NCBI GenBank assembly: GCA_017643395.1
Contig: JAEPNP010000004.1
Span: 62,001-126,000 of the forward strand
Length of the DNA: 64,000 bases
Origin: Rhodothermales bacterium
GTDB lineage: Bacteria; Bacteroidota; Rhodothermia; Rhodothermales; UBA10348
Direction of reading: 5' to 3'
In this document: positions 34,713 to 36,382 of the stretch, in pieces
Position numbering within the stretch: position 1 is the first letter of the stretch
Layout of the letters: each line of letters begins with the position of its first letter
Notes under the pieces: model-generated
What the model was told of the DNA's origin: nothing
What the model saw: the letters and a program-made list of their open reading frames with translations, nothing else
Databases searched by the model: none
Program-made: the position numbers and the translations under genes

Positions 34713-34743
34713 TTGACCACCCTCAGTCGATCACGCTATTTTG
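34713..34743 (+). promoter_or_regulatory. Promoter of tRNA-Arg
   Basis: TTGACC (34713-34718) is followed 18 bases later by TATTTTG (34737-34743), close to the Bacteroidota TAnnTTTG box, and the mature tRNA begins eight bases further on. Position and both boxes support it. Confidence 0.65.
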
Positions 34744-34750
34744 CCCATCT

Positions 34751-34824
34751 GCGCTTGTAGCTCAGTTGGATAGAGCGTTGGATTCCGGTTCCAAAGGCCG
34801 GGGGTTCGAATCCTCCCAAGCGCG
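34751..34824 (+). tRNA. tRNA-Arg (anticodon CCG)
   Basis: The cloverleaf closes fully. Acceptor stem GCGCTTG pairs with CAAGCGC, the D arm is GCTCAGTTGGATAGAGC, the anticodon stem TTGGA/TCCAA holds the loop TTCCGGT with anticodon CCG (codon CGG), and the T arm is GGGGG-TTCGAAT-CCTCC. The discriminator is G and no CCA is encoded. Its 3' 16 bases recur 144 bp downstream at 34953-34968. Confidence 0.95.
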
Positions 34825-34825
34825 C

Positions 34826-34868
34826 ATGGTGAAGCCCGATCCGCCGTAGGCGGGTTGGGCTTTGCCAT
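34826..34868 (+). terminator. 20-bp hairpin after tRNA-Arg (unit 1)
   Basis: Twenty consecutive pairs (G-U allowed) close a 3-base GTA loop, beginning ATGGTGAAGCCC and ending GGGCTTTGCCAT. ATTTTG follows. It starts two bases after the tRNA and is likely its terminator or 3'-processing structure. Confidence 0.75.
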
Positions 34869-34969
34869 ATTTTGCTGGGCGGATGAGAACCCCAACCAGG
34901 GTTCGTGACGAGCGGCTGCGAAGCAGACGCGACTCACGAGCCGAAGGCGAGTAATCCTCCCAAGCGCGC

Positions 34970-35010
34970 TGCTAAATCCTTGTCCGCCATCGGCGGGCGA
35001 GGATTTTGCA
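34970..35010 (+). terminator. 18-bp hairpin of unit 2
   Basis: The stem reads TGC-T-AAATCCTTGTCCGCC against GGCGGGCGAGGATTT-T-GCA with a single T-T mismatch and a 3-base ATC loop; TTTTG follows. The inner CCGCC/GGCGG is shared with unit 1 while the outer stem has different bases, yet remains paired. Confidence 0.75.
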
Positions 35011-35093
35011 TTTTGTCTGGGCGGATGAGAACCCCACCAGGGTTCGTGACGAGCGGCTGCGAAGCAGACGCGACTCACGAGCCGAAGGCGAGT

Positions 35094-35419
35094 GGCCGAG
35101 CAGACGCGACCTGCAGCATGACGCAGGTCCCATCACCCGAGCCGCAGCGACCAAGGGCCGCACCCGGAATCCAAAAGGGTGTGTCAAGGAACTGCCCGAT
35201 CCGTGACGAACTTGGTGCCAGCGTCCTCCCTTCCTCCCTCCGGGGCGCGGTCGTACCAGTATTTGTCGCTTTCCTGCTGCTCGACCTCCGATTCGTGACC
35301 GATGTCCGATTTCTGGTAGCCCGAATTCTCGCTTCGGGACCCAGATTGAGACATCTTCTCACCGCTCGATTTCGCGCCGGTCTCATGGCCGGCACCACGA
35401 AACCTCTCTGCGTCCCCAG
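35094..35419. other. Non-coding stretch with degenerate third repeat copy
   Basis: From 35094 to about 35156 fragments of the 76-bp module recur in order (GAGCAGACGCGAC, then CACCCGAGCCGCAGCGACCAAGG), interrupted by a small CTGC/GCAG hairpin. The remaining 260 bases to galM hold no gene or clear signal that I can recognise. Confidence 0.5.
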
Positions 35420-36382
35420 GTGAGACTCGATCGTATCCAATTGCGGCTTCCGAATGGCTTCTGCGCAGAGCTGACCAGTCTGGGCGCCACCCTGATGGGC
35501 CTCTATGTGCCCGGAGTCTCCCACTCCCTGGTGCTGGGCCTGCCGGAGCCGGAAGACTACGCGGGGCCGCACCCTTTCATCGGTTCGACGGTCGGGCGAT
35601 ACGCCAATCGCATCGCACACGGCCGTTTCTCGCTGGATGGCAGGGACTATGTGCTGCCGACAAACAACGCACGGCACCATCTGCACGGCGGGCCGGAAGG
35701 ATTTCATGCCCAGATCTGGCGCACGCTCTCCCAATCCGATCACGAGGTCGTGTTTGCTCACACCAGCCCGCACGGGCACGCTGGATATCCCGGCAGACTC
35801 GACGCCCGGGCCACGTATCGCCTCGAGGAGCCTTTTCGGCTTGTGATCGAATTTGAGGCACGCTCCGACCGGCCCACTCCGGTTTCATTGACGCACCATG
35901 CCTACTTCAACCTGGCGGGAGCCGGCGACGTACGCGATCACGAGCTGACACTGTCCGCCACACACTACACCCCGACGGATGAAGAACTCATCCCCACCGG
36001 TGAGCGGGCGCACGTGGCGGGCACGGTGCTCGACTTTCGTGAGCCGGCGGTGATCGCGGATCGCGTCGGCGCTGAGGGCCTCGACCACAATCTGGTGCTC
36101 CCTCCGGATGCCTGCGTTCACGCCCGGCTGCTTCACCGGGAATCCGGAGTGGGCCTCACTATCCGGACCAGCGAGCCGGCCATGCAGATTTACACCGGCC
36201 AGCACCTGGATGACCCGGCCGCCGGCGCCCACTTCCCGGCCTACGCCGGTCTGTGCCTGGAGCCGCAACAGTATCCGGACGCGCCGAATCAGCCCGCCTT
36301 CCCATCGCCCGTACTCAGGCCGGGTGATGTCTACCGAAGTCGAACGGTCTACGAGGCCTCAGCCAACGCCCCCGCGAACTGA
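35420..36382 (+). CDS. galM: Aldose 1-epimerase (mutarotase)
   Basis: The 320-residue enzyme interconverts alpha and beta anomers of galactose or glucose. Seen are STVGRYANRIAHGRFSLDGRDY, the NNARHHLHGGPEGFH segment with the first catalytic-site histidine, LTHHAYFNLAG with the second, and the C-terminal CLEPQQYPDAPNQPAFPSPVLRPGD, whose glutamate is the catalytic base. The start is a GTG that gives a conventional N-terminus. No other Leloir gene is in the window; a GH53 galactanase lies 27 kb away. Its last 34 bases overlap the convergent symporter gene. Confidence 0.95.
   Translation: MRLDRIQLRLPNGFCAELTSLGATLMGLYVPGVSHSLVLGLPEPEDYAGPHPFIGSTVGRYANRIAHGRFSLDGRDYVLPTNNARHHLHGGPEGFHAQIWRTLSQSDHEVVFAHTSPHGHAGYPGRLDARATYRLEEPFRLVIEFEARSDRPTPVSLTHHAYFNLAGAGDVRDHELTLSATHYTPTDEELIPTGERAHVAGTVLDFREPAVIADRVGAEGLDHNLVLPPDACVHARLLHRESGVGLTIRTSEPAMQIYTGQHLDDPAAGAHFPAYAGLCLEPQQYPDAPNQPAFPSPVLRPGDVYRSRTVYEASANAPAN

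Follow-up and report, generated by a model that had tools for sequence, protein, structure and literature searches.

An RtT-type tRNA-tail element behind a tRNA-Arg gene of a Rhodothermales bacterium, with both outer arms matched to its host tRNA

The closest described relatives of the locus reported here are the RtT repeats (Rfam RF00391) of the Escherichia coli tyrT/V locus, where an annotated small RNA, rttR, is located. To our knowledge, the tyrT repeats were described decades ago and still lack an agreed function. At tyrV of E. coli K-12, the order is tRNA, an antisense strand (GGGGAAGGAT), a copied AAGGTTCG, hairpins, and finally GAGTAATCC plus the tRNA tail, and this arrangement is present three times. 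RtT members of the Pasteurellaceae have been reported near Asn and Lys tRNAs (PMC4986893). Two other kinds of system resemble the locus in part: islands that tyrosine integrases target to tRNA genes have a duplicated tRNA 3' end at their distal boundary, and REP/BIME palindromic repeats are likewise intergenic hairpin elements, with some BIME-linked attenuators having been reported as rtT-like (PMC2965389).

The DNA examined here (the window) is a stretch of 64,000 nucleotides, and the element that it carries behind tRNA-Arg(CCG) is an RtT-type tRNA-tail element and a relative of RF00391. As in E. coli RtT, it sits behind a tRNA, opens with the tRNA tail in antisense followed by a copied T-stem GGTTCG, has an insert of C(GNA)G hairpins in the copied T-loop, ends with GAGTAATCC plus the host tail, and occurs in tandem copies. 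It differs from E. coli RtT in its host, which is tRNA-Arg here and various other tRNAs among the relatives, and in the strong terminator located between the tRNA and the element; moreover, the E. coli units are 178 bp long and present in three copies, and the window units score below the Rfam gathering score. With the Pasteurellaceae members, which belong to the Proteobacteria, it shares a tRNA-adjacent position at non-Tyr tRNAs (PMC4986893). Unlike tyrosine-integrase islands, it is far too small, has no integrase, contains both sense and antisense tRNA copies and has host-dependent tails, and unlike REP/BIME it is tied to tRNA genes with host tails, in a genome lacking a Y1/RAYT transposase. 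The features of the locus are as follows:

34713-34742, plus strand: promoter-like site upstream of tRNA-Arg(CCG) (from a consensus scan only)
34751-34825, plus strand: host tRNA-Arg(CCG) (ARAGORN and Rfam); its last 17 nt (34809-34825) are the copied tail
34826-34868, plus strand: proximal intrinsic terminator with a 20-bp stem and a 3-nt loop, followed by ATTTTG
34874-34893, plus strand: antisense copy of the host T-arm/acceptor 3' strand, GCTGGGCGGATGAGAACCCC compared with GCTTGGGAGGATTCGAACCCC for the reverse complement of the tRNA; by sequence, it supplies the 5' strands of helices P1 and P2
34899-34905, plus strand: sense copy of the 5' half of the host T-stem plus TTCG (GGGTTCG), by sequence the 3' strand of P2
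34906-34952, plus strand: insert within the copied T-loop, consisting in order of P3, CGACTCACGA, P4 and GAGT
34912-34930, plus strand: hairpin P3 of the insert, with a GAA loop
34940-34948, plus strand: hairpin P4 of the insert, with a GAA loop
34953-34969, plus strand: distal copy of the host tRNA tail, which forms helix P1 by pairing with 34874-34884
34974-35006, plus strand: second intrinsic terminator, unlike the first in sequence, with paired changes that preserve the stem
35017-35093, plus strand: second body, with an antisense arm, a T-stem copy (35040-35046) and an insert (35047-35093), and no tail copy
35094-35176, no strand assigned: unclear remnant sequence containing one 12-mer of the insert at 35099-35110

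From the tRNA onward, the architecture is a terminator, an antisense copy, a sense T-stem copy, a hairpin insert in the T-loop (TTCG^AATCC), a tail copy and a terminator. The one complete element in the window is 34874-34969, approximately 95 nt of structured sequence between two terminators. A sequence-only reading of this locus had described 16 bases of the tRNA end recurring 144 bp downstream, each copy starting a unit of 141-144 bp that closes with a module of 76-77 bp. The tail repeat is real, although it is 17 nt long (AATCCTCCCAAGCGCGC, at 34809-34825 and 34953-34969, with a spacing of 144 bp), and the single indel said to distinguish the two modules was borne out too, as the bodies at 34870-34952 and 35011-35093 are identical at 82/84 aligned positions and differ by a one-base indel. 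Because a 21-base core of the module gave exactly two matches in the window (≤3 mismatches) and none in 100 shuffles, the two-copy module is not a product of chance. The stretches after the two tails do measure 144 and 141 bp, but the two terminators are identical at just 27/44 positions, compared to 99/101 for the tail and body taken together (Fisher p = 1e-8). Therefore, the 141-144 bp unit does not repeat uniformly. As the second body also lacks a tail, a more fitting order, in place of two equivalent units, is the tRNA, then terminator 1 and body 1, the tail copy, and terminator 2 with a tail-less body 2. Further fragments of the module had been placed at 35094-35156; there, one exact 12-mer of the insert (AGCAGACGCGAC, 35099-35110) is present, whereas the remaining sequence of 35094-35176 is unclear. 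The same reading had considered the unit too small for an integrase and devoid of ORFs, and there is indeed no gene-sized room. Two ORFs that overlap the element, 34731-35078 on the minus strand and 34905-35423 on the plus strand, were judged spurious, since they translate antisense tRNA and hairpins; repeated antisense-tRNA peptides of this sort are a likely origin of spurious annotated proteins. Immediately downstream, a block at 35177-35219 (GTCAAGGAACTG...TGACGAACTTGGTGCCA) is kept 3' of the tRNA in the congeners G001 and G002. As for the terminators, those flanking near-identical bodies are far apart in sequence and keep perfect stems (34826-34868 and 34974-35006 in the window, and loci L169 and L156). 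At tRNA-Asn of genome G019, the distal terminators are alike and the proximal one is different, a pattern which suggests that the proximal terminator is native to the tRNA.

The 77-bp module had no second site in its own 4.5-Mb genome in a sequence search and was not found in 394 genomes of the phylum, where there were a few weak, short matches at E 0.01. It had no exact match in two collections (genome_contigs and viral_contigs), and a broader pattern of its core had no match in viral_contigs. The recurring feature is the architecture, not the module sequence: looking behind other tRNA genes, as had been proposed, the architecture was found again with each host's own tail, whereas the 76-bp sequence occurs only here. 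A module unique by sequence, arranged in a short tandem, could also be read as nothing more than a neutral tandem duplication that took in a tRNA 3' end together with the terminator, without any element being involved. As a complete account this is refuted, and we consider it extremely improbable, because a common build and a covarying structure recur at numerous tRNAs across many genomes as well as in E. coli, and because simple tandem copying yields no antisense copy of a tRNA end. Such duplication may nevertheless explain the second body (35017-35093).

In a permissive Rfam scan, the window copies matched RtT (RF00391) at 29.7 and 21.3 bits, and relatives reached at most 34.5 bits. Since the gathering threshold is 45 bits, we refer to the window units as RtT-like relatives rather than formal members. 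An RF00391 search of other Rhodothermales yielded tRNA-adjacent relatives; four of ten subthreshold matches (L103, L106, L108 and L109) had no nearby tRNA and were taken as chance. The kinship was tested in the reverse direction with R1, a covariance model made from five Rhodothermales units only; the Glu unit, which MAFFT had misaligned, was kept out of the training set and was later recovered by R1. The model recovered each of the three tyrT/V repeats of E. coli, at scores of 38-40 bits and with E-values of 1.5e-8 to 4.2e-8 that are rough, the calibration of both R1 and R2 having been short. Its scores were 72.9 bits for window positions 34875-34962, 43.7 bits for the second window body and 24.7 bits for the Glu unit, while the best match outside of known elements was 14.4 bits in 166 kb of searched sequence that included dozens of tRNA genes. 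No ordinary tRNA gene was among the matches listed. The elements further agree with RtT in lying directly 3' of a tRNA gene with a repeated tRNA 3' end, and in having the tandem G-A motif and the set of helices, all four of which covary; the GA-stem-GA flanks and the Y-R covariation in CTGAY/GARTAA are visible in the unit listing. The element had been proposed as possibly new, which is only partly the case given that the E. coli tyrT/V repeats share its build. Two other RNA classes were considered and rejected. The CUGAYGA...GAA segments resemble the core of a hammerhead ribozyme, but by inspection the positions vary (CTCACGA in the window, and GAG for GAA), and weak matches to a box C/D snoRNA (sR23, 10-12 bits) are accounted for by the GA motifs.

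In the window's own genome, a tail test of 43 tRNA genes identified two further tRNAs with their own tail repeated ~130-145 nt downstream, namely Val(CAC) with 17 nt and Glu(TTC) with 15 nt. Elements detected with R1 and R2 are present in most genomes of its family and in one more family of the phylum (f27). Because the FMO antenna protein (PF02327) is encoded in 3/3 genomes of f27 tested, f27 very probably corresponds to green sulfur bacteria. The host tRNAs of f27 are Ser where examined, and those seen in Bacteroidota are Arg(CCG), Arg(ACG), Val, Glu, Cys, Met, Asn, Pro and Ser. Overall, and leaving E. coli aside, the element recurs at no fewer than nine tRNA species from two bacterial lineages, and the earlier suggestion of a tRNA-associated element stands, as similar elements lie behind other tRNA genes, each with its own host's 3' end. 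Tandem arrays in green sulfur bacteria (L116, L117 and L175-L182) have up to three matched units, and the number of units varies among genomes. Among three congeners, the Arg element is found in the window genome only; G001 and G002 have kept tRNA-Arg and one terminator and have neither tail copy nor body. The Glu element is common to all three, and an Asn element is present in G001 and not in the window genome. Thus, the genomes compared, many of which are metagenome assemblies, display gain or loss between congeners as well as frequent duplication. In genome G010, a nearly identical insert is found both behind tRNA-Met and in the T-loop of a tRNA-Gln copy; spread between tRNAs is clear in one genome only. 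The Gln copy of G010 (L119:1501-1600) is devoid of a D-arm, has its T-loop broken by the RtT-type insert and is followed by a terminator.

Both arms of the elements are matched to the host tRNA. Tails sharing ≥12 nt with the upstream tRNA were found for 38/57 elements, compared to 63/2990 (2%) of mismatched pairings, where the upstream partner of the 38 is a tRNA, a displaced tRNA fragment or, for a few units in arrays, the preceding unit. The antisense arm had a mean score of 12.5 against its own tRNA and 7.9 against other tRNAs, and 0/2000 shuffles reached the observed mean. The exceptions include some units that are degenerate and some cases of isoacceptors that are nearly identical (Glu TTC/CTC, Ser). 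Where the tail is intact, the insert of most units starts right after the TTCG/TTCA of the T-loop and stops right before AATCC. With this build present behind many tRNAs in both the Rhodothermales and the green sulfur bacteria, and with its arms following the host, what looked like a peculiarity of a single operon becomes a general class with a rule that can be tested.

Host matching bears directly upon whether these could be miniature integrative elements, in which a tyrosine recombinase would use the tRNA tail and the tail copies would be attL and attR. A direct repeat of the tRNA 3' end does lie at both boundaries, such that terminator plus body are flanked by direct tail repeats, and element-bearing tRNA genes also serve real islands. 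In the window genome, a displaced tRNA-Met tail with a terminator and an RtT-like element is located 11 kb from the intact tRNA-Met (L194, G000:C1:691500-703000), and a tyrosine integrase gene (L194:9725-10930, minus strand) lies near the displaced tRNA-Met end of this island-like stretch. However, the tails vary with the local tRNA in a way that one integrase specificity cannot account for, the antisense arm is host-specific too, the boundary falls at T-loop 57/58, and no integrase is linked to the element, which has no room for a gene. The Met locus itself argues in the same direction: an integrase-bearing 11-kb stretch precedes the displaced copy, so islands enter at such tRNAs, and the element was already there and was displaced as a passenger. 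We consider a miniature integrative element very improbable, and there is no sign of the integrase-type tandem integration that had been put forward for the window, where the boundary lies within the copied T-loop, the element includes the tRNA end in antisense as well, and one complete unit is accompanied by a tail-less duplicate body. Among the enzymes considered, none was found to track the element, and no recombinase was linked to it. The Y1 transposase (PF01797) had no match in the window's own genome (G000) or in the element-bearing genomes G004, G010 and G015, and a Y1/RAYT transposase was rejected as the driver given that the own genome has no Y1. The frequency of islands at these same tRNAs, together with the host-matched tail copies, might also point to a protective decoy, whose tail copy and T-arm-like dyads would divert integrating elements from the tRNA gene. 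As the observed islands entered at the tRNA and not at the copy, and as a decoy leaves the conserved insert unexplained, we regard this as highly improbable.

All four helices of the element covary. Across 21 units, two-sided changes were found at 23/28 pairs, and the covariation score was 0.348, compared to 0.135 (sd 0.013) after shuffling and ≤0.089 with the partners slid, in an alignment that was fitted to the model and thus somewhat favours it. The hairpin loops were distinctive as well: GNA triloops, mostly C(GNA)G, occur in 39/84 insert hairpins versus 5/59 tRNA terminators and 7/818 background hairpins, while G-U pairs make up 4.2%, 10.2% and 15.7%, respectively. Single-stranded DNA mini-hairpins of the GNA type are exceptionally stable (PMC10527192). 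GNA loops combined with few G-U pairs suggest, but do not prove, that the hairpins act as DNA more than as RNA; GNA triloops occur in RNA too, and the loop type alone is suggestive only.

The element might instead be a functional RNA, produced by read-through from the tRNA promoter, processed to a small RNA with tRNA-like outer arms in the manner of E. coli rttR, and proposed to act on the stringent response, tRNA processing or translation. In addition to the rttR annotation at tyrT/V, RtT has been described as freed from tRNA transcripts and tied to the stringent response (PMC4986893), and a covarying tandem G-A motif has been described in RtT (PMC7657543). Four covarying helices and conserved unpaired motifs fit this account too, and no strong terminator precedes the Met member of G010, the Ser members of Chlorobi or the Tyr members of E. 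coli. Nonetheless, a strong intrinsic terminator separates tRNA and element in the window and in many relatives, there are very few G-U pairs, the GNA loops are of the DNA type, and presence is patchy, even among congeners. Overall, we view a functional RNA as the less likely account, but we take it seriously as a rival. If it were true, tRNA genes in distant phyla would have matched companion RNAs, which RNA libraries have missed as subthreshold.

Our favoured reading, to which we assign a probability of roughly 0.55, is a parasitic or neutral DNA hairpin element whose arms are kept matched to the host by recopying. The anatomy, the host rule and the RtT kinship rest on tests. We infer the function, the mobility step and the recopying step, the last of these from the matched arms. 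The element takes both outer arms from the host tRNA as antisense and sense copies of the T-arm/acceptor 3' strand, and its own part is the hairpin pair with conserved unpaired bases, positioned exactly within the copied T-loop. Spreading would mean that the insert enters a duplicated tRNA 3' end, and expansion would occur when the direct tail repeats recombine or slip against each other. The host match would then be maintained by template switching, as the tail repeats and the fold-back of antisense arm and tRNA tail are recopied. In the window, the body of the complete element would have been copied again 3' of the second terminator (35017-35093). The unpaired motifs were more alike among elements of the same genus at different tRNAs (0.816) than between genera (0.747; p = 0.0005), and elements that share a tRNA were no more alike when taken from different genera (p = 0.39). 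The genus-wise likeness might also stem from a binding factor specific to the lineage. It is possible, and we propose it tentatively, that RtT-type elements as a whole make up a wide group of selfish DNA hairpins that adapt themselves, in which the insert enters a copied T-loop and fold-back template switching rewrites both arms to the host. If the DNA reading is true, this would be a genetic element able to rebuild its termini to suit the site that it occupies.

Some units have additional sequence within this build. In the second Asn unit of L169 (G019:C5:60300-61900), the P2 loop contains an extra insertion of >150 bp with terminal inverted repeats (GAAGCGTTTTGAA...TTCAAAACGCTTC), which is possibly a separate miniature element. 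Some units of genus g6 (L138, L161 and L167) carry an extra tandem module, CACGAG-hairpin-CGAC, as if the insert were growing hairpin by hairpin.
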